This document shows, piece by piece, positions 8,043-61,824 of a DNA stretch of 64,000 nt (the first letter of the stretch is position 1; each line of letters begins with the position of its first letter). The stretch is from Acidilutibacter cellobiosedens (lineage in GTDB: Bacteria > Bacillota > Clostridia > Tissierellales > Acidilutibacteraceae). The notes below the pieces were generated by a model. It was not told where the DNA came from, searched no databases, and was given only the letters and a program-made list of their open reading frames with translations. The stretch spans positions 186,001 to 250,000 of the forward strand of contig NZ_CP035282.1 in NCBI RefSeq assembly GCF_004103715.1. The letters run 5' to 3'. Both the position numbers and the translations under genes were made by a program.

Positions 8043-8768
8043 CTAAGCCGAAATACTTGATTCTCTCATCCTGTTGCTCTCCCCGGGGAAAAGCAGCAGG
8101 TGACAGTGGTGTAAAACTCTATCCAGTATTGCGGCTGTCATATCTTTATCATAAAAAACATTTATCCATCTTGAAAATTCAATATTAGTGTTTATAATCA
8201 GTGTTCTTTGTTCATAGCATTCGGATATAAGTTCAAACAACAGCCGGGCTCCTGTTACATCAAGGGGTACATATCCCCATTCATCACATATAATCAGTTC
8301 CGCTTTCATAATCTTTTTCATAAAACTGCTTAAGGTTCCTTCTTTCTTTGCTTCCGACAGTCTGTTAACTAATGCTGCCGTACGGTAAAAACGGGTTTCC
8401 ATCCCTTTTTTACAAGCTTCTACTCCTAATGCTATGGATAAGTGAGTTTTCCCTGTACCTACATTTCCGTACATTATGATATTTGTTTTGCTTTCACAAA
8501 ACTTTAACTCCTTTAAATACTCCGGTGTAACACCTGGAGGCAGGCTTATTTCATCAAACTTGAATCCGTTAAATGTTTTTATACTATAGAATCCTGCCTT
8601 GCTTATTAGTTTATCTATTCTTGCTGTTTTTCTGTGTTCTATTTCTTCCTGCAGTAGTTTAAGTAAAAATTCCTGATGATTTTCCCCTTCCGTTGTCTGT
8701 GCCTGTTCTGCCAGGTTTTGACTTAATCTGAGACGTTTACAGCATTCTCTGATTTCTTTATCTAACAT
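8043..8768 (-). CDS. istB: IstB-like transposition helper ATPase
   Basis: A 241-aa AAA+ ATPase partner of the IstA of the second element. Walker A (MYGNVGTGKTHLSIALG) and Walker B (ELIICDEWGYVPLD) are present, followed by RTLIINTNIEFSRW. Its start overlaps the istA stop by 7 nt, suggesting coupled translation. It is clearly different in sequence from the IstB at 5285-6049. Confidence 0.92.
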   Translation of the reverse strand: MLDKEIRECCKRLRLSQNLAEQAQTTEGENHQEFLLKLLQEEIEHRKTARIDKLISKAGFYSIKTFNGFKFDEISLPPGVTPEYLKELKFCESKTNIIMYGNVGTGKTHLSIALGVEACKKGMETRFYRTAALVNRLSEAKKEGTLSSFMKKIMKAELIICDEWGYVPLDVTGARLLFELISECYEQRTLIINTNIEFSRWINVFYDKDMTAAILDRVLHHCHLLLFPGESNRMRESSISA

Positions 8769-10294
8769 GTCCTTTTACCCCATTTTTTCAATGCCTTATC
8801 ATACTTTGATAAATCTGTTTTCGTAGGTTTCAGTCGGGGTATTCTGCTTTCTGTTTTCATCGGAGGTAATTCCCTTATCTCACTGCATAAATGCCTGTGC
8901 ATGCTTATCAGGCTGTCTACATCCACTGCATCATAACATAGTACTTGGGTTACTGTTTGTGCTGCATTCTCAAAACCATTTTTCTCTGTTAATGAAGCTA
9001 TTACGGATAGTATCTTCCCTCTCTCGCTTCTTTTACATTTATCCAGGTATTTCTTCATATCTTCCGGCATAATGTTATAGATACCACTATATTTTAGTGC
9101 CCCAGGACGTTTGGCAAGCTGCCTCAGATAGGGAAGCCACTTCATGCTTTGCTGTTTATGATCTCCGTATAATCTTTTGTGCCGAACAATTTCGTTTTGA
9201 TTTTCATCCATAGGTATCACATATAAAGATGTAATTTTGATTACAACACGGGTATTTGCGTATTTTGGTGAAACGGAATATTCATGTAATCCATTGTTTA
9301 AATAAAATCGCCCATATCCGTTTGTATGTACTATATGATATCCTGCTGTATCAAACTCTGTTGCAGGCAGCGGTAAAAAATTCTTTTTATCTTCTTCAAA
9401 CAATTTACTGATAAAATCTGCTTTCCTGTAATGCTCCCTGTTTCCGTCTTCATTACATTTGACAAGTAATTCCTCGTTATATTTCCTTAATTCCTGAAAT
9501 CTCGGAATGGGGACTAACATATTTCTCCTGTGGTATCCTACTTTTGATTCAACATTCCCCTTTTCATGCCCTGCCTCAGGATTACAGAATACAGTATCAA
9601 AACCGTAATGTTCCCGAAATCTCATGAATTTTTCAGTCAGGTTACGGCTTCCTTCTTTCAGTATTTTGGTTACAATCGTCTTCGTATTGTCAAACCATAA
9701 CCGGGTTGGAACACCTCCTATATATTCGAATATTGCTTTCAATCCTTCCAACAAACATTCAATATTTTCTCCATAGAATAACTGAAGATATCCCTGATTA
9801 CTGTATGGGAAAGATACATTCAGATATTTTCCGTCATGAAGTACGCCATTTTCATAAAACTGTGCATCCCCGAAATCAACCTGTGCTTCACCCGCAGGGT
9901 GCTCCAACGGCAAATATCCTTCTTTTTCGGTATGAAAAATTTCCTTTTTCTTTAATGTTACAAAAGCCGCTACTGTCCGGTAAGAACAGTCAAAACCTTC
10001 GATTTCTTCTTTCAGTCTGTTATAGACCCTGGTGGCTGTATGACGTTGTTTCTTTTTTGCTTTCTTATCATTCTCCAGCCATTGGGTAATAATTGACTTG
10101 TAAGGATCAAGTTTAGAAAATTCCATATTTGTTTTAACTGCAGGAACAGGCTTGTTCCAATCATTTTTATTAATATACTCCCTTATTGTTTTTCTGTCAT
10201 AACCGGTTTCACGGGATATTTGAGATATATTTTTCCCTTCCTCAAAGTAAAGTTTTCTGATATCATATATTTGTGCCATTGTTAGCATCTCCAT
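8762..10294 (-). CDS. istA: IS21-family transposase IstA
   Basis: A 510-aa DDE transposase with an N-terminal helix-turn-helix (GKNISQISRETGYDRKTIRE) and the triad D in AQVDFGDAQF, D in RLWFDNTKTIV and E in HEKGNVESKVGYHRRN. The gene is intact and overlaps istB. The ribosome-binding site is GGAGG just upstream (complement of CCTCCTTG near 10298). Confidence 0.93.
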   Translation of the reverse strand: MEMLTMAQIYDIRKLYFEEGKNISQISRETGYDRKTIREYINKNDWNKPVPAVKTNMEFSKLDPYKSIITQWLENDKKAKKKQRHTATRVYNRLKEEIEGFDCSYRTVAAFVTLKKKEIFHTEKEGYLPLEHPAGEAQVDFGDAQFYENGVLHDGKYLNVSFPYSNQGYLQLFYGENIECLLEGLKAIFEYIGGVPTRLWFDNTKTIVTKILKEGSRNLTEKFMRFREHYGFDTVFCNPEAGHEKGNVESKVGYHRRNMLVPIPRFQELRKYNEELLVKCNEDGNREHYRKADFISKLFEEDKKNFLPLPATEFDTAGYHIVHTNGYGRFYLNNGLHEYSVSPKYANTRVVIKITSLYVIPMDENQNEIVRHKRLYGDHKQQSMKWLPYLRQLAKRPGALKYSGIYNIMPEDMKKYLDKCKRSERGKILSVIASLTEKNGFENAAQTVTQVLCYDAVDVDSLISMHRHLCSEIRELPPMKTESRIPRLKPTKTDLSKYDKALKKWGKRTC

Positions 10295-10441
10295 TTCCTC
10301 CTTGCAATCTAATCAATTACAAGGATAATATATTGGTCAGATGTCTGCAATGGCATTTGCAATATTGGGGAAATTACCTCTGCAAAAGTGGGGAATTCTA
10401 CTTTGCAATATTGGGTAATTTTATTTTACAGCAAACATTAT

Positions 10442-12076
10442 ATGGTAATGAAACCTTATGTAAAAAAAGAGATAATTGGGTTTATAGTAATATGTTGCAT
10501 GACATTTTTAACACTCTTAAATCCTTATATAATGAAGAAAATATTTGATGAAGCAATTTCTATGCAAAATTTTAAACTACTATTCCGATTTATATTTATT
10601 TATGGTGTAGTATATTTATTGAGACAAGCTTTAGAAATTTATCAAATTTATATATTTACATATATTGGTGAAAAATTAGTGTATGATTTACGGATGAATT
10701 TATATAATGCATTAATGAATAAAAATACCATTGATTTAGAGGAAAAAGGAAAAGGTGAATTAATTTCACAAATTTTAAATGAAGTTCCTATTATTGTAAA
10801 TTTTCTTGCTGGGACAAGTGTAAATATACTAATACAAGTCCTAAATATTACTGCAACTTTTATAATAGTATATTCTTTAAACAAATTAATAGCTATAACT
10901 TTGGTGATTGACGCTTTTTTTATATGGGTTATTACTAAACGTTTTAATCCAAAGTTAAAAAGTATTAATACTTTAATTATAAAAAATAAAGCTACTGTTA
11001 ATAATACAATAAAAGAAAATTTAGATAATCTTAAGATTATTAAATATATGCATTTTTATAAATATGCAGCTAAAAAGTTTTCAAGAGCCTTACATAAAGA
11101 CATATTAGGGAAATTTTCATCTATATCATTGACTAATAAATATAACTTATATTTATCGTTATTATATTTTTTACCTTCACTTATAATTCTATCATATGGA
11201 GGAAATCAAGCTATTAAACAAGAAATAACTGTTGGAACAATGATTGCATTATTTACATATATAAATAATTTCTTAAATCCAATACAAATATTAACGAATA
11301 TAAATATAGATTTTCAAGCATCGATTGTTGCATTCAATAGATATTATGATACTGTTAGTAACACTAATGAAGATAAAAGAGAACTCAAAAAAATCAAATG
11401 TTTAAACGATGGAATAAAATTAAATAATGTTTCTTTTGGCTATGATAAAAACTATTTATTTAAAAATATAAATCTTAATGTACATTTGAATACTGTAGTA
11501 AAAATTACAGGAGAAAATGGAACAGGAAAATCAACTTTAGTTGATTTATTATGTGGTATATTGATCCCAGATAAAGGGGAAATAGAGTATGACGGTATAA
11601 ACATAAATGATATCGATAAGCATTCATTAAAAAAACTTATTGCAATTGTCCCACAAAGAACTTATTTGTTTAACGATACTATAGTAAATAATATAAAAGT
11701 GGGAAGAAATATAGATGAAAAAATTATATTAGATTTATGCAAAAAATTTGAATTAATAAACTCTAATAATAATTTGAATCTAGAATCAATGGTTATTAAC
11801 AATGGTTCTAATATTTCTGGGGGTGAGTGTCAAAAGATATCATTATTAAGAGCTATAGTTAATAATCCGCAAATAATAATATTTGATGAATTTTCTACAT
11901 TTATTGATGAAAAAACTAAAAATATATTTTATAAATATATGAGACAAAACAAAGCAGGAAAGATAATAATTGTAATTTCTCATGAAACGCAGCTTGACTT
12001 AGAAGTAGATATTAATATTGACTTATCAAAACAAAAAATACATATAGACCAAAATTACAAAGAGGCTGTTTTATAA
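10442..12076 (+). CDS. ABC exporter (fused TM and ATPase) for the Cys-rich peptides
   Basis: A 544-aa half-transporter, six-TM domain then nucleotide-binding domain, of the ABC-B type. Walker A is GENGTGKST (about residue 357), Q-loop VPQRTYLF, signature ISGGECQKI, Walker B IIIFDEF, H-loop VISHE. There is no C39 peptidase domain, so leader removal would need another enzyme. I start it at ATG 10442 (MVMKPYVKKE), a normal exporter N-terminus. The frame is open back to 10388, but those codons lie in the end of IS 2. No good ribosome-binding site remains, so the native leader was probably lost to the insertion. Export of the matured peptides is inferred from location. Confidence 0.85.
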   Translation: MVMKPYVKKEIIGFIVICCMTFLTLLNPYIMKKIFDEAISMQNFKLLFRFIFIYGVVYLLRQALEIYQIYIFTYIGEKLVYDLRMNLYNALMNKNTIDLEEKGKGELISQILNEVPIIVNFLAGTSVNILIQVLNITATFIIVYSLNKLIAITLVIDAFFIWVITKRFNPKLKSINTLIIKNKATVNNTIKENLDNLKIIKYMHFYKYAAKKFSRALHKDILGKFSSISLTNKYNLYLSLLYFLPSLIILSYGGNQAIKQEITVGTMIALFTYINNFLNPIQILTNINIDFQASIVAFNRYYDTVSNTNEDKRELKKIKCLNDGIKLNNVSFGYDKNYLFKNINLNVHLNTVVKITGENGTGKSTLVDLLCGILIPDKGEIEYDGININDIDKHSLKKLIAIVPQRTYLFNDTIVNNIKVGRNIDEKIILDLCKKFELINSNNNLNLESMVINNGSNISGGECQKISLLRAIVNNPQIIIFDEFSTFIDEKTKNIFYKYMRQNKAGKIIIVISHETQLDLEVDINIDLSKQKIHIDQNYKEAVL

Positions 12077-12807
12077 TTTAAGCTCTCATTCCTAATTTTG
12101 TCATCAAATGTCATTGAAAAATTCGTAATCTTATTGAATAAATCAATATGTATTTATTGTAAAATAAAATTGGTTCTTCTTATAGTTAGTTGAAAACCGA
12201 ATTTATTATAATAATTTTAATTAGAATTTAGAAGTATTAAATTTTTAAAATGCATATTTAAACCATTATTAGAAAAAACTATAAAATTCATAATATTACC
12301 AAGTAAAGTAATCTTTTTTAAATTGCATTTATTAAATATATTAAGGACAACGCCCGCAGGGCGAGTAATAACAAATCTTTGACATGTTTAATAAATGTAA
12401 TTAGGCTGTTATAAATTGCTGGTATATTTTTCACTATCCTGTTTGCAAAAATGGGGAATCTTATTTTACAATAAACATCCATATCTTTATTTAATTGTAT
12501 ATTTTGCTCTACAGTTATAATAGAGTGACTATTAATATCAAATTTTGGCAATAGAAAAATTGCTTTCCTATCGACTCATATAATAGTATTTTCTCCTATT
12601 TACAGTCTACATCTTAGCTATAAGGAAACTATTTACCTTCTGATCGATACAATAACATTTTATTTTAACCTTGCCATTTATTCAGACTTTTTTTTAATGC
12701 ATCATATTTTTATGTATTTAAATAATGTTGTAAAATAACTCTAAACGAAAAGTTTTACTGTCTTTAATCATGGCTTTCAATTTTGAGGTGTATTTATAAT
12801 GAAGTTC
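12077..12807. other. noncoding region with IS-end remnant and a GC hairpin
   Basis: About 730 bp without a gene. It contains the perfect GC hairpin CGCCC-GCA-GGGCG at 12351-12363, unusual in this AT-rich context, and an IS21-like end at 12442-12470. The rest is AT-rich and featureless. Confidence 0.5.
12442..12470. mobile_element. solitary IS21-like right end (relic)
   Basis: A 29-bp stretch ending in TTATTTTACA matches the right terminus of IS 2 (10402-10430) at 25 of 29 positions and in the same orientation; its middle TGCAAAAATGGGGAATC also matches the internal end repeat TGCAAAAGTGGGGAATTC. It marks a former copy of a related element downstream of the exporter gene. Confidence 0.6.
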
Positions 12808-12816
12808 TGATATAAT
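12808..12816 (+). promoter_or_regulatory. possible extended -10 promoter of dnaX operon
   Basis: TGA-TATAAT forms an extended -10 element about 30 nt before the dnaX start; no good -35 is seen. Confidence 0.35.
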
Positions 12817-12846
12817 ATATATATTATGATAATGTAGGTGAATAAC

Positions 12847-14496
12847 ATGTATAAGGCTTTATATAGGAAATATCGTCCTCAAACTTTTGACCAAGTGTGG
12901 GGACAGGAACATATAACCACAGTTCTTAAAAATCAGATTTTACACGGAAGCATTGGGCATGCTTATCTTTTTTCCGGAACCCGAGGGACAGGGAAAACTT
13001 CTACGGCTAAGATATTTGCAAGAGCTGTTAACTGTTTAAATCTTGTTGACGGGAACCCCTGCAACGAATGTGAGATATGCAAAGGGATAATGGATGAGAC
13101 TATAATGGATGTAATTGAAATGGATGCAGCAAGCAACAACAGCGTAGAAGATGTAAGAGAACTGAGAGAAAAAGTAAAGTATCCTCCTTCAAATTGTAAA
13201 TATAAAGTATATATAATAGATGAAGTTCATATGCTCTCTAAGGGAGCTTTTAATGCGCTTTTGAAAACATTGGAGGAACCTCCGGAACATTTGATATTCA
13301 TTTTAGCAACGACAGAAGTGGAAAAGTTACCTCAGACTATTTTGTCCAGATGCCAAAGATTTGATTTTAAAAGAATTACTGTAAATGATATAGTAAGTAA
13401 TATGAAGAAAATATGTTCTGATATGAATGTGTCAGTAGATGAAAGCGTGCTACATCTTATAGCAAGGAATTGTGACGGCGCAATGAGGGACGCTTTAAGC
13501 CTTTTGGAGCAATGTATTTCTTTTGAAGAAGGGCATATTTCCATGGAAGATGCTTTAGAAATACTGGGGATAACGAATTATGATTTAATATTTCAATTAG
13601 TAGATAATATAAAATATAAAGAATTGGACAAAGCATTGAATTTGATAAATGAAATAATCCAGGACGGAAAGGACATAAATCAGTTTATAAAGGATTTAAT
13701 ATATCATTTTAGAAACCTCATGATTATCAAGACTTCCGTTCACCCTTCGACTATCATTGAAATGGAGCCGGAAATAATCGAAATGTATAAAAAACAAGCC
13801 CAGGATATATCCTTGTCTTTTATACTTGAAGCTTTAAATATTTTCAATGATAGTGAAAATAAAGCCAAATGGTCGACTCAACCGAGAATTATACTTGAGA
13901 TGGCTGTTATAAGACTTATAAAGATGGAAGGAGAAAAAGATATTTATGAAAGAGTAAAGGACCTAGAGGATATAATAGCTAATGGAAGTATACCGGTTAA
14001 CCATAAACCAAAGGAAGAAAAAAAAGAAAAGCCTTACAAAACAGAAAAAATAAAAATTAATGCTCAAGATAAACCAGCAGATAAAGTTGATAAGACAGAA
14101 AAGAGTCAAAGAGATGACGGAAATGAGCTCAATATAGATATTATAAAGGAACGATGGGACAATGTTCTCAAATTCATAAAAGAGAAAAAAATAGTTATTC
14201 ATGCTTTACTAATAGAAGGTTCTCCCATATCATATGAAAATGGTATTTTATCCATAGAATATAAACAAGGCTATGGTATACACAGAGAAGCCATAAGCAA
14301 GGATGACAACAAGAATTTTGTTGAAAAGATTTTATCCGAGTATTTTAATAAAGAGATAAAAGTCCGATTTGTAATGGAAGGGGAAAATTTATTAGAAATA
14401 AATAAAGAAGAAAAGGAAGACATTCTTAAACCCATAATTGATTTTTTTGGAAAGGATTTAATTGAAGTTGAAAAAAAGAATAAGGAGGAAGAATAA
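12847..14496 (+). CDS. dnaX: DNA polymerase III subunits gamma and tau
   Basis: The clamp-loader ATPase, 549 aa from ATG 12847 (AGGTG 5 nt before; an in-frame GTG lies 9 nt upstream). Domain I has Walker A ([14 protein letters not shown]), a zinc module (C in RAVNC, then [10 protein letters not shown]) and Walker B (YIIDEVHML); sensor 1 is [13 protein letters not shown] Lys/Glu-rich linker follows residue 385, then a tau-type C-terminal domain. An A8 run in the linker (14018-14025) puts both other frames onto stops within 10-12 codons (14051 and 14058), so slippage there would give a gamma-like product near 400 aa. ybaB overlaps its stop, and recR follows. Confidence 0.96.
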
Positions 14497-14831
14497 TGGC
14501 TAAAGGCGGATTCCCTGGAGGGGGAAATATGGGAAATATGATGAAGCAAGTTCAAAAGATGCAAAAGCAGATGACAGAACTTCAAAGCCAGCTTGAAGAA
14601 AAAGAAGTGGAGGCAAGTGCAGGAGGAGGAGCGGTAGTAGCTAAAGCTAACGGGAAAAAAGAATTAATTTCTATTACTATAGATAAAGATGTAGTCGATC
14701 CGGATGATTTGGAGATGCTTCAGGATTTAATATTGGCAGCAGTAAACGAAGCTCTGAGGAATGCAGAAAATTATGTACAGGAGGAAATGAAGAAGATAAC
14801 AGGAGGAATGAATATTCCCGGGTTATTTTAG
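14496..14831 (+). CDS. YbaB/EbfC nucleoid-associated protein
   Basis: A 111-aa DNA-binding protein, usually between dnaX and recR. It forms a tweezer-like dimer on DNA. The Gly/Met-rich N-terminus, the [20 protein letters not shown] helix and the central [20 protein letters not shown] strand region are typical. The ATG overlaps the dnaX stop (TAATG), so translation is coupled. Confidence 0.95.
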
Positions 14832-14845
14832 AAAAGGGTGATAAA

Positions 14846-15445
14846 ATGGACTATTATGCTTTGCCTATAGCAAATTTAATAGAAGAGTTTTCCAAACTTC
14901 CCGGAATAGGGAGGAAAACTGCTCAAAGATTAGCCTTTTATGTATTGGAATCAGATACTAAAGATGCGGAAAAATTAGCAAATTCAATTATTAATGCAAA
15001 AGAGAAGGTAAAATATTGCAGCATATGCTGTAATTTGACTGATGATGATCCTTGTTATATTTGCACAGATAAAAAAAGGGATACCTCTACTATATGCGTA
15101 GTAGAAGGTCCAAAAGATGTAGTTGCAATGGAAAGGACAAGAGAATATCATGGACTGTATCATGTTCTTCACGGAGCCATATCACCTATTGAAAATATAG
15201 GCCCTGATGATATAAAGATCAGGGAACTTTTAGAAAGAGTTAAGGATGGGCAAATAAGGGAAGTGATCCTTGCCACAAATCCCACAGTAGAAGGGGAAGC
15301 AACAGCAATGTATATAGCAAAACTGTTAAAACCCTTTGAAATAAAAACAACAAGAATTGCCCACGGAATACCTGTGGGGGGAGACTTGGACTACCTTGAT
15401 GAGATAACTTTATCTAAGGCTATGGAAGGAAGAAGAGAAATATAA
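14846..15445 (+). CDS. recR: recombination protein RecR
   Basis: A 199-aa recombination mediator acting with RecO/RecF at gaps. It has the N-terminal helix-hairpin-helix ([18 protein letters not shown]), a four-cysteine zinc module ([16 protein letters not shown]) and a Toprim domain starting [15 protein letters not shown]. The length equals the family norm. It lies 14 nt after ybaB and closes the dnaX operon. Confidence 0.97.
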
Positions 15446-15459
15446 AATAATCTTTTATA

Positions 15460-15856
15460 TGTATAACCAAAATAAAGTCTTGTGACGGAAAATAAAGTTT
15501 TGTCATGTTTATTAGGGAGCAAGGCTCAAGAATCAAGGAATAAGGATATTTTTAAGAAGGATTTAGAGACAATCACAACAGGCTAAAAATATTGATAGTA
15601 AAGACTTAAGAGGGAAAAGAGATTATGATAAGAATAGTCCTTTTCCCTTTTTTCATATACCTTGATCCTGCCTTTACAACAGAACTTTATTTACTTTTTC
15701 AGAGAGCATTAAGGGGCATTTGAGGGCAAAAAATAATAGGAAGTAAAAAAGAGGTAAAAAGGAAGAAAAATACAAAGGTAGAGATACCAATGGTTAGCGG
15801 GTTGTGCGTGACAGAACTATATTTGCTTTTTGACAGAACTTTATTTTGATTGCACA
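15460..15856. mobile_element. 397-bp internally deleted IS21-like relic
   Basis: The left end TGTATAACCAAAATAAAGTC and the right end (complement) TGTGCAATCAAAATAAAGTT form an imperfect terminal repeat starting with TG. Each end holds extra internal copies of an AAAATAAAGTTTTGTC-like unit: left at 15468 and 15489; right, inverted, at 15677, 15810 and 15832. No transposase remains. The interior holds a hairpin with T run at 15611-15653. Confidence 0.65.
15611..15653 (+). terminator. intrinsic terminator inside the relic
   Basis: AGGGAAAAG and CCTTTTCCCT form a stem, followed by six T. It may end the dnaX-ybaB-recR transcript about 165 nt after the recR stop. Confidence 0.65.
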
Positions 15857-46606: not shown

Positions 46607-46671
46607 GCTTATAAAGATGGGTGATGGAGTAAAATCTATTACCCTTTTACTATATGAGGAGGATGAAACAT

Positions 46672-49600
46672 ATGAGAATAAATGATTTTGAACATTTAAT
46701 TCAAGAGATAAAGGCAAAGGCTCTATCTGATAGTGACGAATATATTTCTCTTATGAGAACCGTTGGAAACAACTATAAATATGATTTTACTAGTCAGCTT
46801 AGTATCTACAACAGAAATACTAATGCAAGAGCCTGTGGAGAATTTGACTTTTGGAGAAAGAAATTTAATAGAACTGTAAAGCGTGGCGAAAGAGGAATTC
46901 CCATATATAAGAATTATGGAGGATATGGCAAAGTAACCTATATTTTTGATCTAAGTCAGACTGTATCAATGACAAGAGCCACAAATCAGGTGGAATTATG
47001 GGAGTTAACCAATGGGGAAGATAGCTTAAGGGGAGTTTTAGGGTTTGATGGAGCTTTTAGTGAAGATGAAATGAAGGATATGACAATAGATGAAATCCTT
47101 GAAAATATTGCATATACAGAAGTAATCAACAAGGGTAACTATCTTTTAAATGAACTTAAGATAGCTCCTAATTATAGAAAAATCTTTAATGATTTTCTTA
47201 CAGAATCCTTAAAAATAGGATATGCTGCAAGGCTTGATATAAATTATGAAGCTGATAGAAATAAGATTAATGATATCCTTGGAAGTCTTGATGAAATTTC
47301 ACTAACAATAGTAGGTAATGAGCTAAATTTAATGGTGACAGACATCCTTGAAAGAACAGTAGCTATAGATAAAGAGATTGATAAAAATAAGGTGCTGACA
47401 AAAGGAGCAATTGAGCGGTACAATGAAAATAGAGAAATAACAGATAAGGAAGAAAAAATAGGAGGGATAGATGATGAGTTTCGAGGAAATGTTGGAAGAA
47501 TATCTGATGGAAGAGAAGGTAGAGAACGAGTATCAGATGATATTTGGGGAATGCGAGACATCGGAAGAGATAATCTTGAAGATGAAGGAAGTAACAGAGA
47601 AAGTTCTAATGAAGGATCAGACACACCTGACTCACAGATTCGCCCAGGCGAGACTGAACTTCATGGTAGAGGAGAAAGAGAGATTATTCCAAGAGATGTT
47701 CCTGGAGAAAAGCCTTATGAAGCATCTTCTAGAAGTGGAAGAGACAGCCAAGAGGTTCATAGAGATGGAGAAACCGAGGATGATGGAAAGCTTTGGGCTG
47801 ACAGAGGAACTGAAGGCAGAAGATTGGATGAAGTGGACAGGTCTTATGGAGAACCTGAATCACGAGTTGAGGGAGATGGCAATGAAGGAGTACGTTTACA
47901 ATTAGATGAAGAAATAAGCATAGATGAGGACCAGGGAGTAGATGATGAATCTGCTTCCTTTTTTGTTCCAGAATACTATTCAAAAGCTAATCCTCAAGAA
48001 CTTATGAATGAAGAAATCTTAGAAAATGTTCCTAAACTAGGAGAAACTGAAGAAATATCTGCAGCAGATAAAACAGTTCATGCAGCATATATTATTCCAT
48101 TTAGAAGTAATTGGACCTGGTATTTGACAGAGTATGATCCTGAAACAGAAGATGCTTATGGTCTTGTAGCAGGTCTTGAACCAGAATGGGGCTACTTTAA
48201 TCTTAAGGAACTTAGGAAAATTGGAGCAGAAAGACTTGTTCTTGAAGATTTTCCTAAAACATTTAAGGAATTAAGGGATAGTGAACTTAAAAAACAATTA
48301 AGCGAAGAAGAAATTCATAGAGTATTCTTTGGAGAACTTGATGATTTTACAAGAAATGAAGTTTCACAAGAGGTAGACCCAGAAATTCTTTTTATGCAAG
48401 GGGAAGAACAAATAGATGAAGAACTTATTGCAGCTAAAGTAGGTACAGAATTTATTATAATTCCAAAAAGCAATCTTAATCATATAGAACTTGATAAAGA
48501 TGAAAGACAGGTTTTAGTTGATGGTGTAGAATATCAACTTTATAAGGGTAAAAACTTTGAAGACTCAAGAGAAATAGAGATTTTTATGGATGAAGAAGGT
48601 TATAAAACCTATAAAATAAATGATTATCTTATAGATTTAAAAGACCAAGAGTTAAATAGAGTGCCTATTGCTAGGGATGATGTTATAAAAATGTGGGACA
48701 ATCCTTTTATTATTACAAGTGTAAGAGAAGATATGCTTCTTATAGAAATGCTTCCTTATGAATTGAAAGAAGAATATATTATTGATGCAAGACAGGTAAG
48801 AAGGCTTCAATTTGAAAGCATAGATGAATTTAATGAGTTTATTTATACTACTGAACTTTATGACTTTGATGAAGAAAAAGCTAAAGAAGATGAACAAATG
48901 ACTTTTTCTTTTGGAGGTTTTGAAGATATAGAAGATAGACAAGAAGACGAAAGAGAAACCCCTAAGATTGAAAATTTTGTTATTACTGATGAAATTATTC
49001 CTGAAAGCCTTCCACCACAAGAAAGGCTGGAGAATAATATTAATGCTATAAAAGTCCTTAAAACTTTGGAAAAAGAAAATAGGGAAGCAAATAGAGAAGA
49101 ACAAGAAATTCTTGCTAAGTATGTAGGCTGGGGTGGTCTATCAGAGGTATTTGATGAAAGTAAAACAGGACAATGGGAAAGGGCAAGGAACTTTCTTAAA
49201 GAAAACCTTAGTCTAAGTGAATATGAGGACTGTGAAGAATCTACACTTACGGCTTTTTATACTCCTAAAACAGTTATTGATGGAATCTATCAAGCACTTG
49301 AAAACATGGGATTTGAAAATGGGAATATACTTGAGCCTTCATGTGGAGTTGGTAGCTTTATGGGAAGCCTTCCTGAAAGCATGAAGAAATCAAAGGTTTA
49401 TGGTGTAGAGCTTGATAGTATATCAGGCAATATAGCAAGAAAATTATATCCCGAAAACAATGTACAGGTTAAGGGATTTGAGGAAACCTCATTTTCCAAT
49501 AACTTTTTTGATGTGGCAATTGGCAATGTTCCATTTGGAGAATTTAAAGTAAATGATAGATTATATGACAAGAACAACTTTTTAATTCATGACTATTTCT

Positions 49601-52600
49601 TTGCTAAGTCAATAGACAAGGTAAGAAGTGGTGGAGTAATTGCATTTATTACTTCCAGTGGGACAATGGATAAAAAGGATGATTCAATTCGTAGATATCT
49701 AGGTGCAAAATGTGAGCTTCTTGGAGCTATAAGACTTCCAAATAATACTTTCAAGGGTATGGCTGGAACTGAAGTAACTAGTGATATTATTTTCCTTAAA
49801 AAGAAGGAATCAGTAATAGAAAGAGAAGAGCCATGGTATGAACTTGGAATAGATGATAAGGGTTTAAGTTACAACAAATATTTTGTCGAAAATCCACAAA
49901 TGGTACTTGGTCAAATGACAGAGGTATCTGGTCGATTTGGGAAGACCACTACCTGTCAAGCCAAGGATAATCATGATTTAAAATCTGAACTTTCACAAGC
50001 TATAAACAAGATTCAAGGAAAGATTGAGCCTATAAAAGTTGAAAGAGAGGAAGGAGAAAAAGAAGCTGAGATTATTCCAGCTGATGAAAATGTAAAGAAC
50101 TTCTCATTCACCGAAAAAGATGGAAAGGTCTATATGAGAGAAGACTCTATAATGAGAGAAGTGGATAGGAATGATAAAGACCTAGATAAAATCAGAGATT
50201 ATATAGCTCTTGGAAATGCTCTTAGAGAAGTGATTGATTTACAGTTAGAAGATAGAAGTGAAGTTGAGATTAAACTAGCTCAGAAAAAACTTAATGATAT
50301 ATATGATGAATTTAGCAAGAAAAATGGCTTTATAAATGGAAGAATGAATACAAGGCTTTTATCTGAGGATAGTAATTTTGCTCTTATTTCAAGTATTGAA
50401 AAACTTGAGGAAGGAAAGTTCAAGGAAAAGGGCGATATATTTACAAAACGAACAATAAAAAAGGCTGTGCCAGTAACTCATGTGGACACACCAGACGAAT
50501 CCCTTATTCTTTCTATTGCAGAAAAAGGAAGAGTAGACCTTGGATATATGGAGGAACTTACAGACCTTGATGAAAAAGTCTTAGTAGAGAGTTTAAAAGG
50601 CAAGATCTTTCTTGATATTAAGGAATTTGACAGAGAAAACAATGCACTTCCCTTTACAGAGAAAGAAAAGCACAATCCTATGGCATTTAACTATGTAAGT
50701 GCTGATGAATATTTAAGTGGAAACATCAGAGATAAGATAAATGTTTTAAATGAATATATAAATTATATTGAGGGTTCTATAGGCTTTATGGATAAGGATA
50801 ATTCTAATTTCAAACAAATAGAAGACAATCTTGCAAACCTCAAAATACAAAAACTGAGCCTTAAGGAAGTAATGCCAAAGGAACTCACTGCTTCAGAAAT
50901 CACAGTAAGACTTGGAGCTACATGGATACCAGAAAAAGATGTAGAAAACTTTATCTTTGAAACTCTTAAAACACCAGGATTTGCAAGATGGGATATTCAT
51001 GTTAGATACTCACCTTTTACAGCTGAATGGAGAATTGAGGGTAAGAGCAAGGATGGAGGAAATGACCTTGCAAATATGACCTATGGTACTAGTAGAGTTA
51101 ATGCTTATAAGATTATAGAAGATGCCCTTAATCTTAAAGAAACAAAGGTATGGGATAGGGTTACAAATCCTGATGGTAGTAGGTCTTCCATACTCAATAA
51201 AAAAGAAACAATGCTTGCAAGTCAGAAACAGGAACTTTTAAAAGAAGAGTTTAAAAATTGGATATTTAAAGATCCAGACAGGAGACACCGTTTAGAAAAG
51301 CTTTATAATGAAAAATTTAATTCTGTGCGTAACAGGGAATATGATGGAAGTAATATTCGCTTTGAAGGCATGAATTCAGGTATTATCCTTAAAGACCATC
51401 AAAAAAATGCAGTTGCAAGAACACTTTATGGTGGAAATTCCCTTCTTGCCCATACAGTAGGTGCAGGTAAGACCTTTGAAATGATTGCTTCTGCAATGGA
51501 GTCAAAAAGGCTTGGAATGAGTAACAAGGCATTATTTGTAGTGCCTAACCATCTAACTGAACAAATAGGAAGGGACTTTATGGAACTTTATCCTGGAGCA
51601 AATATTATGGTTGCTACCAAGAAAGATTTCCAACCTAAGAATAGAAAGAGATTCATAGGTAAGATTGCAACAGGAGAATATGATGCAGTTATTATAGGCC
51701 ATTCACAATTTGAAAAGATACCTATGAGTAAAGAATATCAAGAAAATCATATAAATAGGGAAATTGAAGGGATTCTAGAATACATTGAAGAGTATAAGTA
51801 TGACAGAAGTCAAAATTTCACAGTAAAGCAGCTACAAAATACTAAAAAGAAACTTGAAAGTAGATTAAAAAAACTTAACGATGATTTTAAAAAAGATGAC
51901 GTGGTTACTTTCGAGGAACTAGGAATTGATAAGCTTTTTGTGGATGAAGCCCATAATTATAAAAATCTATTTCTTTATACAAAAATGAGAAATGTGGCAG
52001 GAATAGGTCAGAGTGAAGCACTCAAATCTTCTGATATGTTTATGAAATGTCGATATTTAGATGAAATGACAGGAGGAAAGGCAGTAGTATTTGCTACAGG
52101 TACTCCAGTGTCAAACAGTATGACCGAGCTTTATACCATGCAACGCTATCTTCAATATGATGAACTTGAAAAGAATAACCTACAACATTTTGATTCATGG
52201 GCCAGTACATTTGGTGAGACTGTAACGGCAGTAGAGCTTTCACCTGAAGGAGATAAATATAGAGCTAAAACAAGGTTTAGCAAATTCTATAACCTTCCTG
52301 AGCTTATGGGCATGTTTAAAGAAGTGGCAGATATAAAAACAGCTGATATGCTTGATTTAAAAGTTCCTGAAGCGGAATATGAAACTATAGTGACAAAGCC
52401 TACAGACGAACAGAAAGAGGTCTTAAAAGGCATCTCAGAGCGAGCAGACAGGGTAAGAGATAGAAGGGTTGAACCAGAAGAAGATAATATGTTAAAAATC
52501 ACGAATGATGGTAAAAAACTAGCCCTTGACCAAAGGCTTATCAATCCTCTTTTACCTGATGATCCTGATAGCAAGGTCAATGTATGTGTAAAAAATATTT

Positions 52601-54411
52601 TTTCTATCTGGGATAAAACAAGGGATAATCGTTCAACCCAACTAGTATTTTCTGATATGTCTACCCCAAAGAATGATGGAAGTTTTAATGTTTATGATGA
52701 TATAAGGGACAAGCTTTTGAATATGGGTATTCCAGAAAAAGAAATAGCATTTATCCATGATGCTAATACAGAAAAACAGAAGGATGAACTATTTTCTAAA
52801 GTCCGTAAAGGCCATGTAAGGATTCTTTTAGGGTCTACCCAAAAGATGGGAACAGGTACTAATGTACAAAATAGACTTATTGCTACCCATGACCTTGATG
52901 TGCCATGGAGACCTGCAGATTTGGAACAGAGGGCGGGTCGTATTGTAAGACGTGGTAATAAAAATGACAAGGTTAAGATATTTAGATATGTTACTGAGAA
53001 TACTTTTGATAGTTATTTGTGGCAGACAATAGAAAATAAGCAGAAATTCATCTCACAGATTATGACTTCAAAAACACCTGCTAGAGTGGCGGAAGATGTT
53101 GATGAGAATACTCTTTCTTATGCTGAAATTAAAGCCCTTGCAACAGGTAACCCTTTAATAAAAGAAAAGATGGACCTGGATATTGAAGTAACCAAATTAA
53201 AAATGCTTGAAGGAAACTACAAGAGCAATCTTTATAGCTTGGAAGATAAGATTATAAAGACCTATCCAAGAGAAATTGAAAAATATAAGAAGCTTATTGA
53301 AGGTGCTAAAAGTGATATTGATAGAACTAGGCCACAGGGAACAGGTGATAATAAGTTTACTTCCATAAAAATCGGCGATGAAATAATTACAGATAGAAAA
53401 CTTGCAGGAGATAAAATCCTTGAAGCAGTTAAGGGAGTGAAACTAAGAGATAAAAAGCTTATTGGAGAATACAGAGGATTTCCTATAGAAGTAACCTATA
53501 ACTTCCTTACAAATGAGCATAATTTTAATTTAAAAGGCTCAAACAATCATTATGGAGATTTAGGACAAAATAGGGATGGAAATATTACAAGAATGGATAA
53601 TGTCTTGGAGAGGATTCCTGATAGTTTAAAAAGATTTGAAGAAAAGCTTGAAGCTACCAAAGAACAAATTGAAATTGCTAAGGAAGAAGTAAATAAACCT
53701 TTTGATAAGGCTGAGGAATTAAAAAACAAGACAATAAGACTCACAGAAATTAATAGACTTCTTGATATGGGAGAAGTGGAAGACCTAGAAAATCTAAATC
53801 CCCTTATAGAGGATATTAAAAGGCTTATTATTGATTATTGCAATAGAGAATTTGGAGAAGACCATGCTTATGATGACTTCAATAAACTTTTCCCTGATGA
53901 AGGCCATATTGGACTTGCCTATACAACTACAGAAGATGGGAAACACGAAATACAATATGAAATAAGTCTTAAAGATTATTCATGGACACAGTATGTAGAT
54001 AATAAAGAAGTATCTCATGGAAGTTATCTTGAAAGTGAGGATGATGAGTCTGTAAGCAAAGAAGAAGCTCTTAAAAAGCTTAAACTCGAACTTGAACATG
54101 GAGATTTTGATGAATATGTAAGGGTTGATGAGAAAGACTTAAGAGGGAAACTTGGACTTGAAATTGACGATGATGGAAATTTCTATGATCCACTTGCAAA
54201 AGACCTAGATAATGATGGGATTCCAGATAGGTATGATAATGACTTTAGAAGTAGTAATTATTTTGAATCAACTTATGATGTTGATGGCCTTAAGAAGGAT
54301 GATAAGGAATCTACACTTGGGCAACTTGAAAAATTTAAAGCCAAAATTAAAGAAGAAACAAGCTCATTACTGGATGAGAAAGATAAAGAAAAGAATAAGG
54401 GTGCAAGATAA
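46672..54411 (+). CDS. giant ArdC-like/methyltransferase/SNF2 helicase protein
   Basis: A 2579-aa protein of the type carried by Tn1549-like elements. The N-terminus resembles ArdC ssDNA-binding domains ([40 protein letters not shown]). A disordered linker at residues 265-415 overlaps a second gene. Then come several small domains, a class I methyltransferase ([17 protein letters not shown] near 885; NVPFGEF near 951 in place of NPPY) and a SNF2-type helicase ([14 protein letters not shown] near 1591, [11 protein letters not shown] near 1754, [14 protein letters not shown] near 1806, [11 protein letters not shown] near 2084). It starts at ATG 46672, 9 nt after AGGAGG. Likely role: protecting or processing incoming DNA. 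Confidence 0.88.
47474..47905 (+). CDS. TnpV-like protein nested inside the giant gene
   Basis: A 143-aa protein read in the +1 frame relative to the host gene and lying wholly within it. GGAGGG at 47461-47466 is placed 7 nt before ATG 47474 (another ATG at 47471). The C-terminal two thirds match my memory of transposon protein Tnp[17 protein letters not shown], then [20 protein letters not shown] and a final KEYVY (TnpV: GxTExLKAxxxMxWVxxMN...ELIY). The host frame here encodes only a Gly/Glu/Arg/Asp-rich linker. TnpV function is unknown. The alternative is a chance open frame, but sequence likeness and RBS argue against it. Confidence 0.68.
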
Positions 54412-57034: not shown

Positions 57035-57640
57035 ATGGATAGTAAGACACCATATATAGCTTCCCTCACAAGAGAACCTTTTATGTATTATGAAATGAAA
57101 ATAACTGCAAAGTTACTTGAGGAAGGATTAAGCGAAAAAGAAGCTATAGAAAAAATATTTAAAGAAAATCTATATCAATATCCTACAGAAAGAAGTCTTA
57201 AAATGAGAGCAAGAGCTTGCTTAAAAAGATTAAATGCTCTAGAAGATGAAGAGCTTGTATCATGGATTATAAATAGACCTTTAGATATTTCAAGACAAGT
57301 ATGCCTATATGCAATGATGAAAGATTCAAGACTTATATGGGAGTTTATGATTACTGTTATTGGAGAGAAATACAGAACCCGTAATTTTTCCTATAGTAGA
57401 ATGGATCTAAATGTATTTTTCACAAGACTTCAGGAACAGAATAATACCGTAGCAAGTTGGAGTGACTCAACAATTAACAAGCTTAAGTCTGTATTAGGAG
57501 GTCTTTTAAAAGAAAACGGATATATAGATAAAACGAATTCTAAGAGTCTTAATGAAGTGCTTTTAGACTATAAATTAAAAGATAAAATAATTGAAAATGG
57601 AGATGCAACTTGTCTTCCAGCTTTCAATTATTTTGAGTAA
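57035..57640 (+). CDS. brxA: BREX protein BrxA
   Basis: A 201-aa protein of the DUF1819/BrxA family, a DNA-binding fold required in type I BREX. Features: PYIASLTREPFMYYEMKITA, QYPTERSLKMRARACLKRLN, and QVCLYAMMKDSRLIWEFM. AGGAGG precedes the ATG. First of the ordered brxA-brxB-brxC-brxX set. Confidence 0.92.
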   Translation: MDSKTPYIASLTREPFMYYEMKITAKLLEEGLSEKEAIEKIFKENLYQYPTERSLKMRARACLKRLNALEDEELVSWIINRPLDISRQVCLYAMMKDSRLIWEFMITVIGEKYRTRNFSYSRMDLNVFFTRLQEQNNTVASWSDSTINKLKSVLGGLLKENGYIDKTNSKSLNEVLLDYKLKDKIIENGDATCLPAFNYFE

Positions 57641-57653
57641 AGGGGGCAGCAGA

Positions 57654-58211
57654 GTGAGCAATATAAATGAAAAACTTGATAGATTAAGAAGCTTGTTTCA
57701 AGATCCAGATTTTCTTACGGGAAAAGGACTTAGTAACGAAGTAAATATAAGAATGTTCTGCTATGAGCCTGAAGATGAAATGGCTGTAAGACATTTTACA
57801 AAGCAACTTGAAAAGGATAATTCGCTGGATTGCAATCTTATTTGCTATAATCTATATCATGTGTTTTTGGAAATATGTGAGGAAAAAAATATTATAGATA
57901 AGATTCCAGCTATGGAAGAAAAAAAAGGAAGTGATTTCCTTAAGGATAGAATATTAAAATTCTCAACAACAAAAGCTTTTGCAGAAAAAATGCAGTATGA
58001 GCCACATGAAAAAGGAGATGTTCTTCTACTTACAGGAGTAGGAGAGGTATATCCCTTTATGAGAGTTCATTCTCTTTTAGAAGAATTACAGACAGGATTT
58101 GATGACATTCCTATAGTTGTTCTTTATCCAGGAAGTTTTAATGGCAGATCGGTAATATTATTTAATGAATTTACACCAAATGAGTACTATAGGGCATTTA
58201 ATATAATTTAG
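57654..58211 (+). CDS. brxB: BREX protein BrxB
   Basis: A 185-aa DUF1788/BrxB protein. Typical pieces: PDFLTGKGLSNEVNIRMFCY and GDVLLLTGVGEVYPFMRVHS, VVLYPGSFNGRSVILFNEF. I start at GTG 57654, 8 nt after AAGGGGG; an open frame reaches back into brxA but has no RBS. Role in BREX unknown. Confidence 0.92.
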   Translation: MSNINEKLDRLRSLFQDPDFLTGKGLSNEVNIRMFCYEPEDEMAVRHFTKQLEKDNSLDCNLICYNLYHVFLEICEEKNIIDKIPAMEEKKGSDFLKDRILKFSTTKAFAEKMQYEPHEKGDVLLLTGVGEVYPFMRVHSLLEELQTGFDDIPIVVLYPGSFNGRSVILFNEFTPNEYYRAFNII

Positions 58212-58230
58212 GAAGTGGGAGGGAATATAA

Positions 58231-61200
58231 TTGAGAATACAAAATATGTTTTATGATGACATCAATAGAGAGATAAATGGTGTTATCAAAGTTGATCAAG
58301 ATACGGAAGGTATAATAGAACAGGAACTTTCAGAATATGTTATTACAAGGGAACTTAAGAAACACTTTATAAGTTTTTTTAATTACTATTCAGATTCTTT
58401 TGATAGACCGACTGCTGATACAGGTGTATGGATTTCTGGATTCTTTGGAAGCGGTAAATCTCACTTCTTGAAAATCATTTCATACATTTTAGAAAATAAA
58501 GAAGTAAATGGAATTAAGACTGTAGAGAGATTCAGAGAAAAATTTACGGATGATTTAGCAACATTTATGCTGATTGATAAATCAACACAGGCCCCTACAG
58601 AAACAATTCTATTTAATATTGATATAGAAGGGCCTATGGAAAAAAACAAGACAGCAGTTTTAAGGGTATTTGCCAAGATGTTTTATAAACACCTTGGATT
58701 TTATGGTGAAAATCTTAAAGTTGCAAAACTTGAGCAGTATGTAGATAGAAAAGGAAAAACAGAAGAATTTAGACGTGTTTTTGAAGAAAAAAACGGTGAT
58801 TCATGGATAGATTCAAGAGATGTATTTGACTTCTGTGAAGATGAAGTAGTTGAAACACTTATGCAAGTTCTTGGTATGAGTGAAACAGCAGCGAGAAACT
58901 GGTTTGACTCCTCTGAAGAAATTGATATTTCAATAGCACAGCTTGTGTCTGAAATAAAAGAGTATGTTGATAGTAAGCCAAATAATTATAGGCTTCTTTT
59001 CATGATTGATGAGGTGGGACAGTATGTAGGTGCTGATACTGATATGCTCCTTAATCTTCAATCTTTAGTTGAAAAGATAGGCTCTGAATGTATGGGAAAA
59101 GTCTGGGTAATGTGTACTGGGCAAGAAGCTCTAGATGAAATAATTAGAACAAGGGCAGACGAATTTTCAAGAATCCAGGCAAGATTCAAGACAAGGCTTT
59201 CACTTTCTTCATCATCAGCAGATGAGGTTATTCAAAAGAGAATTCTAAAGAAAAATAATGAGTCCAAAGCCTATCTTGAAGATGTTTATGACAAACAGAA
59301 AAGTGTTATGGACAATCTCTTTAAATTTAGAGAAGCAGTTGGAGATATAAGAGGTTTTGAAGGACCAGGAGAATTCTCTGTAAACTTTCCCTTTGTGCCA
59401 TATCAGTTTATTCTCATGCAGAAGGTATTTTCTGAAATTAGGAAACATGGTAATGCAGGAAAGCATTTATCAGGTGGAGAAAGATCTATGCTTTCTGGCT
59501 TCCAGGAAGCTGCACAAAGGGTTCAGGATAGGGATGAGTATGCAATAATTCCTTTTTGGATGTTTTATGACACAGTTCATACTTTTCTTGATGGTTCAAT
59601 TAGAAGAGTAATAGAAAGAGCAGAAAGAGCAGCAAGAGATGATAAGGGTCTTGAACCTATAGATGTTAATGTCTTGAAGCTGCTTTATATGATTAGGTAT
59701 GTGGAAGATATACCTGCAAATCTTGATAATATTATAATTATGATGGCTGAAGATATAAGAGTGGATAAGATTGATGAAAGAAACAAGATTCAAAAATCAC
59801 TGGATAGGCTTATTCGCCAGAACTATATTGCAAGAACAGGAGATACATATAATTTTCTTACTGATGCAGAGCAGGATGTAGAAAGAGAAATCAGAGATGA
59901 ATATGTAGATCCAAGCGAGATTACAAGAAAAATTTCTGAAATGATTTTTGGGAATATATATACAACAAAAAAATTCCGTTATGAAAAGAAATATGACTTT
60001 GAATTTGATAAAAAAGTAGATGGTGTAAATTATGGTAATCCAGTTGGAGGAATGGAACTAGAGATCCTTACTATTGCAACAAGCGTAATAGATAAACAGG
60101 AACTTAGACTGATGACTGAATCTCAGAACAAGGTTCTTGTGGTACTTGAAGATACGGAATATTACAACTTCATAGAAAATGCTATGAAAATAGATAAGTT
60201 TGCAAGAAAGAAGAATATCCCACAACTTCCAAAATCAATGCAAGATATTATAAGAAGTAAACAAGACGATGCTGAGCATTTTAAAGAGGATGCCTTAGTG
60301 GAACTTAAAGAGGCTTTTATGAAAGCAAAGTTTTATATAAATGGAGATAGGACTACAGTAAAAGCTGGAACACCACAAGCTAAAATTGATGAAGCGTTAG
60401 AGTATCTAGTTTCTAATGTATATAATAAACTTGACTTGATTACAAAAAATGCAGATTCAGATGAAGATATTTATAAGATTCTTGATGGAAGAGAAGATGA
60501 TGGTATAATGCCAGGACTAGAGTCCAACAGAAAGGCAGCAACTGAGATTGAAACCTACCTAATAGCTCAAAACCAGCAACACCTTCCTACCAATATGGCA
60601 GATGTTCAGAAAAGATTCACATCTATTCCTTATGGATGGCGAGAAAGAGATGTTGCAGCTGTAGTTGCAAGATTAATCTATGAACAAAAAGTAATTATTA
60701 AATACGGTGGAGAAACCATAAGAACAGATGATGAGAGGCTTCCAGAACTTTTATATAAGAGAAGTGAAATAGGGAAAACAAAGATTCAAAAACGTGAAAT
60801 GATAAGTATTCAAAAGATAAAAGAGGCAAGAGACTTTTTAAGAGATTTCTTTGACCTTATGGATGTGCCAGAAGATGATGATGGACTTGTAGATTTTATT
60901 ATTTCTAAATTTGAAAACCTAGAAGACCATTATGATGAATTACTTAATAAATATGAGGGCAATAACTATCCTGATAAAAAGAAAATAATTGAAGCAAAGG
61001 CTACTGTATCAGATCTTCTTTATGCAAAGACAGATAATATTGCCCTTGTAAACAAGCTTATTGATATGGAAGATGAGCTTGAAGATATGCAGGAAGATAT
61101 GGAAGCTATTGAAGACTTCTTTAAGTCACAGGTAGATACATTTGATGAAGCAACAAGACTGGAAAGCTTGCTTCGTTCAGACCTTGATTACCTTCAAAAT

Positions 61201-61824
61201 GAAAGTGAAGTAAACGATGCACTTAATAAAATTAGACTTATAGTCAATATCAATCCTAAAAAAGACGATTTTGATTATAGGGATGTTCCAAAACTTAATG
61301 ATTATATGAAGGTAGTGAGAGAAGGACATAATAGGCTTCTTTATGGCAAACGTGAAGAAATCCTTGAAATTGTAAGACAATGTATGGAAGAAATCCATAG
61401 GGGAGATAAAAATGATAGGCTTATCGGCAATATAATTAAGAAAACTGATGATTTTTATACACAAAAGAAAAAGGAAATTGCTGAAACAGAAAGTCTTAGA
61501 ATTCTTGATGGATTTATTCCTAGTCTTTGGTCTGAAAAGGATCAGGCAGTCAAAGATATAATTTCTATTGAAAAAAGTAATGCCGAAGCTGAAAGAAGAC
61601 GTAATGATGAAGAAGGAAAGCAAAGTGGAGAAAATGATACTGTAAAAGAAACTGAAGTATCACCTGAGCCTGAAAAGAAAAAGCATATTAAGAAATTCTA
61701 TAGGCAATCAATATTCCCTGCAAGAACTCTGGAAAGTGAAAGTGAGATAAGAGAGTATCTAGAGACTATTGAAAAAAATCTTATGACACTCTTAGGAGAT
61801 TGTGATGGTATAGAAATAAACTAA
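58231..61824 (+). CDS. brxC: BREX ATPase BrxC
   Basis: A 1197-aa P-loop protein (BrxC/PglY). The N-terminus (MFYDDINREINGVIKVDQD) is typical. Walker A is SGFFGSGKSHFLK (residues 69-81) and Walker B LLFMIDEVGQYVG (about 255). The C-terminal half is helical and ends in KKHIKKFYRQSIFPARTLES. TTG start after GTGGGAGGG. BrxC binds the BREX complex that recognises unmodified phage DNA. Confidence 0.94.
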   Translation: MRIQNMFYDDINREINGVIKVDQDTEGIIEQELSEYVITRELKKHFISFFNYYSDSFDRPTADTGVWISGFFGSGKSHFLKIISYILENKEVNGIKTVERFREKFTDDLATFMLIDKSTQAPTETILFNIDIEGPMEKNKTAVLRVFAKMFYKHLGFYGENLKVAKLEQYVDRKGKTEEFRRVFEEKNGDSWIDSRDVFDFCEDEVVETLMQVLGMSETAARNWFDSSEEIDISIAQLVSEIKEYVDSKPNNYRLLFMIDEVGQYVGADTDMLLNLQSLVEKIGSECMGKVWVMCTGQEALDEIIRTRADEFSRIQARFKTRLSLSSSSADEVIQKRILKKNNESKAYLEDVYDKQKSVMDNLFKFREAVGDIRGFEGPGEFSVNFPFVPYQFILMQKVFSEIRKHGNAGKHLSGGERSMLSGFQEAAQRVQDRDEYAIIPFWMFYDTVHTFLDGSIRRVIERAERAARDDKGLEPIDVNVLKLLYMIRYVEDIPANLDNIIIMMAEDIRVDKIDERNKIQKSLDRLIRQNYIARTGDTYNFLTDAEQDVEREIRDEYVDPSEITRKISEMIFGNIYTTKKFRYEKKYDFEFDKKVDGVNYGNPVGGMELEILTIATSVIDKQELRLMTESQNKVLVVLEDTEYYNFIENAMKIDKFARKKNIPQLPKSMQDIIRSKQDDAEHFKEDALVELKEAFMKAKFYINGDRTTVKAGTPQAKIDEALEYLVSNVYNKLDLITKNADSDEDIYKILDGREDDGIMPGLESNRKAATEIETYLIAQNQQHLPTNMADVQKRFTSIPYGWRERDVAAVVARLIYEQKVIIKYGGETIRTDDERLPELLYKRSEIGKTKIQKREMISIQKIKEARDFLRDFFDLMDVPEDDDGLVDFIISKFENLEDHYDELLNKYEGNNYPDKKKIIEAKATVSDLLYAKTDNIALVNKLIDMEDELEDMQEDMEAIEDFFKSQVDTFDEATRLESLLRSDLDYLQNESEVNDALNKIRLIVNINPKKDDFDYRDVPKLNDYMKVVREGHNRLLYGKREEILEIVRQCMEEIHRGDKNDRLIGNIIKKTDDFYTQKKKEIAETESLRILDGFIPSLWSEKDQAVKDIISIEKSNAEAERRRNDEEGKQSGENDTVKETEVSPEPEKKKHIKKFYRQSIFPARTLESESEIREYLETIEKNLMTLLGDCDGIEIN

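Follow-up and report, generated by a model that had tools for sequence, protein, structure and literature searches.

The window analysed here is a stretch of 64,000 nucleotides from Acidilutibacter cellobiosedens (contig NZ_CP035282.1, positions 186,001 to 250,000), and the locus of interest within it is a giant DarB-like gene on the forward strand (46654–54411, +), an open frame whose 2585-aa product fuses an N6-adenine methylase to an SNF2-type helicase, as found by Pfam, alignment A1 and PADLOC. Indeed, the Pfam families detected in this product are SNF2-rel_dom, Helicase_C, Eco57I and ResIII, and PADLOC returned methyltransferase and DrmD-type helicase matches. From 5′ to 3′, the gene comprises an N-terminal module (46654–47470, +), which has homologues in 61 of the 199 genomes of the order and evolves under purifying selection in the host frame (omega 0.275 as upstream control); a linker rich in Gly, Glu, Arg and Asp (47472–47903, +), near-neutral except for the absence of stops; a methylase segment (LEPxxGxGxF ... 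GNVPFG; 49330–49857, +), which served as the probe for the family surveys; and the helicase region (51388–53076, +), delimited by ResIII, SNF2-rel_dom and Helicase_C. Approximately 3 kb 3′ of the giant, the BREX genes brxB and brxC (57591–61824) look like members of one conjugative element with it.

The DNA of the linker carries a second gene, in the +1 frame of the giant: a TnpV-family gene of 143 codons plus stop (47474–47905, +), recognized by its open frame, a Pfam match, its selection and its relatives. The initial annotation had proposed such a gene, with a ribosome-binding site 7 nt before its ATG, and both the frame and the site were recovered. The Shine-Dalgarno site AGGAGGG (47460–47466, +) precedes a first ATG by 4 nt and a second ATG by 7 nt, the first one, at 47471, extending the open frame to 144 codons (47471–47905, +); the site is kept in the relatives L079–L083, and other lineages have strong sites in the corresponding position. 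Directly before the ATGATG, a TAG stop lies in the nested frame (47468–47470, +), so that this frame has no upstream extension. In the relative L083, the first ATG is replaced by ACG and the Shine-Dalgarno site and second ATG are retained, which makes 47474 the likely start. In L079 and L080, two close relatives of the window gene, the host frame is broken, and the TnpV gene is intact in L080 and truncated in L079. The genome of the window also encodes a second giant, approximately 55% identical to the first and likewise with TnpV in the +1 frame.

The likeness to TnpV suspected at the outset proved to be a significant match to PF14198 (residues 53–142, 47627–47896, +; profile positions 22–111 of 111), with an E-value of 7.2e-15 and 55.4 bits, above the curated cut-off of 27. 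No Pfam family other than TnpV was matched by the nested product, including none of the Xis or HTH families, and PADLOC attributed it to no defence family. In alignment A2, the conserved C-terminal region of TnpV (TEELKxxDxMxWxxxMNN...AEExVxxELxY) is present in the window product; the N-terminal motif GDYLIPxL, found in most nested ICE copies, is absent from the window's branch, so that here assignment to the family depends on the other 90 positions. The AF2 model is all-helical, as the initial annotation had expected (mean pLDDT 87.9; 82–98 in the TnpV-matching part), and a fold search with the models of this protein and of a Burkholderia-phage counterpart gave no match in the PDB or the viral library.

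The nested arrangement is by no means local to the window; mostly missed by annotation, it is found in most relatives of the giant gene, both in mobile elements of gut and oral bacteria and in phages with many other bacterial hosts. When loci of the order were retrieved through the N-terminus of the giant, 29 out of 30 had a TnpV-profile hit in the same frame, with the third frame closed, and giants taken whole or in part, down to approximately 30% identity, all had TnpV in that frame (20 out of 20). A survey of named genomes with the methylase domain as probe was restricted to the best 80 of 558 matches, and thus covers the closer relatives within the family; TnpV was found in the same +1 frame in 76 of these 80 giant homologues, the host frame being intact in 74 and broken in two. 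As for the remaining four, the contig ends (L109) or begins (L132) within the gene, one giant is broken just 5′ of the methylase (L174) and one is without the N-terminal part (L165). Nested copies of ICEs score up to 3.5e-44 against the TnpV profile. Existing annotation represents these loci poorly: at L013, where the giant's frame is open from 8106 (8106–15785), RefSeq keeps TnpV (8968–9300) and starts the giant at 11217, and most or all of the giant is missing from the annotation of L009 and L010. This amounts to a systematic fault, by which pipelines omit the nested gene, or retain it and truncate or omit the giant.

In viruses, we surveyed 80 viral contigs encoding the methylase domain. 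The ICE-like contigs among them carry TnpV, and the phage giants gave weak TnpV-profile hits, each of them again in the +1 frame and no more than approximately 1 kb upstream of the methylase. A profile iterated from these weak hits recovered a same-frame ORF in nearly all phage giants, and in a six-frame scan its other hits were genuine standalone TnpVs only. Since this profile was iterated on loci selected through the host gene, homology was tested independently: a profile comparison of the phage ORFs with standalone TnpVs only gave an E-value of 1.4e-11, and alignment A2 compared with that of the phage nested ORFs (A3) gave 1.7e-9. The curated Pfam TnpV model recognizes 24 of the 45 phage ORFs at E ≤ 1 (best 2.5e-15; the first member does not match), and no other Pfam family matches more than two of the 45. 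The phage ORFs are nevertheless very diverged, some having no TnpV-profile hit, and they are treated as distant TnpV homologues rather than as family members. The AF2 model of the Burkholderia-phage protein (pLDDT 89.9) has the same order of helices as the window protein in their common part.

Diverged homologues in this same frame thus occur in the DarB-like giants of phages that infect Burkholderia, Klebsiella, Erwinia, Vibrio, Agrobacterium, Microcystis and others; the nested ORF is found in phages BcepIL02, LASTA, Pavtok, Stean, Atu_ph08, Mwe-JY07, POI1126, VvAW1, Y7 and Itty13, and none of the records of these 10 phages annotates it. No nested TnpV match was obtained for P1 DarB or for the giants of Thermus phage Lalka8 and Dolichospermum phage Dfl-JY45, which implies that the enzyme core can exist without TnpV. 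Three further observations concern phage loci. In phage PBC5 (L260, 3733–4306), the giant is split, and its upstream half enters the nested frame and ends with TnpV-like sequence, which may reflect either a sequencing error or a real break. A Dolichospermum phage giant (L262, approx. 2871–3650) has a long +1 open frame 5′ of the methylase, with no TnpV match, perhaps a further diverged or an unrelated nested gene. Finally, nine of the 45 phage nested ORFs in A3 match phrog_938 ‘endolysin’ in PHROGs (best 1.6e-24); these matches may stem from broken giants like that of PBC5, whose upstream half enters the nested frame.

Which of the two frames is conserved was judged from the differences between close relatives, sorted by their effect in each frame (omega for the nested frame, NN/NS; for the host frame, NN/SN), with codon-bootstrap intervals and the region just upstream as a control. 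This is simple class counting, in which multiple hits are uncorrected and pairs are not independent, so that the values below are approximate, though the contrast between frames is not. In the window type, omega over the overlap is 0.21 for the nested and 0.83 for the host frame, versus 0.73 and 0.28, respectively, just upstream. The same reversal is seen in lineage A (0.23 and 0.93 over the overlap; 0.76 and 0.13 upstream), in the Anaerococcus type (0.16 and 0.90; 0.80 and 0.18), in canonical TnpV (0.40 and 1.39; 1.19 and 0.28) and in phages (0.39 and 1.09; 1.07 and 0.47), for which only close pairs were used because omega over all phage pairs saturates (0.72). In all five lineages, therefore, the nested frame is constrained (0.16–0.40) where the host frame drifts (0.8–1.4), and the upstream control gives the opposite picture (nested pseudo-frame 0.73–1.19; host frame 0.13–0.47). 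The initial annotation had explained the tolerance of the linker by conservation of the other frame, and these values fit that explanation, the +1 frame being both open and conserved among homologues. Neither of the two outcomes that the annotation had named as refuting it, lack of a significant TnpV match or a +1 frame interrupted by stops beside a conserved host frame, was observed.

Even so, the host frame is kept coding. No host-frame stop was found over the nested ORF at 64 ICE loci, where 646 were expected, nor at 51 phage loci, where 222 were expected, the expectation being obtained by drawing synonymous codons from host usage; the zeros hold partly by construction, because loci were called nested on an open host frame. 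The host genes were themselves found through the methylase or the N-terminus, and the same frame continues on both sides of the overlap. Start signals are likewise enriched: in 56% of ICE loci, the first nested ATG lies behind a Shine-Dalgarno match of 6 nt or more, versus 1.3% of the other out-of-frame ATGs of the same genes, and in phage loci the corresponding figures are 39% and 1.1%. The overlap accordingly bears two marks of dual coding, selection on the nested frame and avoidance of stops in the outer one; amino-acid selection on the outer frame is relaxed, and its avoidance of stops is complete.

The reading that best accommodates these data, and which we hold with high confidence, is that one stretch of DNA specifies two proteins, a selectively maintained TnpV-family gene being nested in the +1 frame of the giant. 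The giant methylase/helicase would be read straight through the overlap, and ribosomes would also initiate internally, at the Shine-Dalgarno site and ATG inside its mRNA, yielding beside the giant a helical TnpV-family protein of approximately 100–150 aa in the +1 frame. We infer that both proteins are made.

As to what the small protein does, we tentatively favour an accessory role, as an assembly, packaging or regulatory partner of a DarB-like antirestriction enzyme, since such an enzyme is the only thing that phages and ICEs visibly share at the locus. This role is judged the most likely one even though its probability falls somewhat short of even. Ranked next, and rather unlikely, is that the nested protein is made but, rather than partnering the giant, serves DNA mobility as a factor of the excisionase or recombination type. 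One report cites a postulated role of TnpV of Tn4451 in excision, based on homology with lambda Xis (PMC3158075); in L015, a standalone TnpV shares bases with the end of a serine recombinase gene; and IMEs carrying standalone tnpV insert in snf2 genes, for example that of S. suis (PMC9815147). Yet the phage homologue lies in a late, virion-associated antirestriction gene, with no recombinase nearby in the stretches read, and the lack of Xis, HTH and PDB matches for an all-helical model likewise speaks against a mobility factor.

It is very unlikely that TnpV is reached by ribosomal frameshifting and made as a fusion to the N-terminal domain instead of as a free small protein. The split gene of PBC5 indicates that such a fusion can exist, but it is possibly a sequencing error or a broken gene; in the window, the in-frame TAG directly 5′ of the nested ATG stands in the way, and frameshifting would not need the strong Shine-Dalgarno/ATG pairs that are present across lineages. 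Marginally less probable still is that the giant is not one protein and that its upstream and downstream parts are translated separately, with TnpV as a gene between two genes, as the RefSeq annotation of L013 might suggest (TnpV annotated, helicase start 1.9 kb further on): the lack of host-frame stops in ICE and phage loci alike, and selection in the same host frame on the part 5′ of the overlap, both run counter to it. A relic or artefact, in which a purine-rich composition holds the frame open or a TnpV insertion is carried along passively, has a negligible probability despite the minus-strand frames that are also open in the window: the third frame is closed everywhere, and the nested frame is constrained in five lineages (0.16–0.40) where the same pseudo-frame upstream is not (0.73–1.19). 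The closed third frame and the upstream control reject a composition artefact, and the contrast in selection refutes this reading as far as sequence can. The initial annotation had pointed out two such minus-strand frames and warned that open length alone proves little; they are present, their lengths vary widely among relatives, and we agree with the warning, the strong evidence being the family match, the conservation of the frame and selection.

The nested genes have close kin in transposons. Among 70 TnpV hits of the class, drawn from the higher-scoring ones, 20 are nested; at the 40 later loci, the host frame spans at least 767 codons around nested copies and at most 187 around the others. 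In the tree, phage copies group together, whereas standalone and nested ICE copies intermingle: a topology that unites every standalone copy in one clade is rejected (p-AU 0.010), and the well-supported branches require three or more changes between the standalone and the nested state. The alignment is short, and the tree therefore leaves the direction of movement open. Flanking DNA does not settle it either, since homology stops at the edges of the TnpV ORF (pair L278/L287–L290); no remnants of the giant gene were found flanking closely related standalone copies. In L188 (13626–14003) and L190 (13560–13937), a standalone TnpV starts 22 nt before the frame of a giant stops, which could reflect insertion of an IME into the 3′ part of the giant gene, as reported for S. 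suis snf2 (PMC9815147). We lean slightly towards the nested frame being the older one, the host linker having been overlaid on it when the N-terminal module and the methylase/helicase were joined, and standalone tnpV having moved out or in several times. With about even probability, the nested gene would be an ancestral companion of N-terminally extended DarB-like giants, predating the split between phages and ICEs; the giant would have overprinted the small gene, and transposon tnpV would represent copies that escaped from nesting on more than one occasion.

Several known systems resemble parts of this arrangement. TnpV (PF14198) is a protein of Tn4451 and IME transposons, from whose known representatives the window gene differs in being entirely enclosed by another gene that is read in a different frame, and in belonging to a branch without the N-terminal GDYLIP motif. 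The host gene shares its methylase and helicase architecture with the DarB-like antirestriction proteins of P1 and Bcep22-like phages, and in one Bcep22-like phage the methylase segment of the host gene matches P1 DarB with 31% identity (E 5e-15), although P1 DarB has almost nothing N-terminal to its methylase and gave no nested TnpV match. P1 DarB is known for antirestriction and virion association (PMC9024508), and a DarB-like giant was detected in the JC1 virion (PMC9144972); the ICE giant is a putative DarB-like antirestriction enzyme. DarB of P1 has a small, separate neighbour, Ulx, that assists its localization (PMC9024508). We found no homology between TnpV and Ulx, which therefore offers at most an analogy, one showing that DarB systems can need small helpers. 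Rz1 inside Rz is likewise a whole small same-strand gene in a second frame of another, and an embedded Rz1 has been reported for these very phages (PMC9144972); nested TnpV differs in spanning Bacillota ICEs and phages of Proteobacteria and cyanobacteria, and in the near-neutrality of its outer frame over the overlap.

Both the TnpV family and nested genes as such were already known; what appears to be new is the recurrent nesting in DarB-like giants, its depth and the reversal of selection. No description of this nesting was found in the openly accessible papers retrieved on TnpV, DarB and overlapping genes. Few documented same-strand genes of such length lie entirely within another gene and have homologues in several bacterial phyla, in ICEs and phages alike; the present one illustrates clearly how a small frame can be conserved while the linker of the giant gives way. 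Nesting is how the giant gene usually occurs in ICEs, and the DarB-like genes of phages share it. TnpV, a named but functionless family, thereby gains a recurrent home, one suggesting that DarB-like antirestriction systems have a component so far overlooked.
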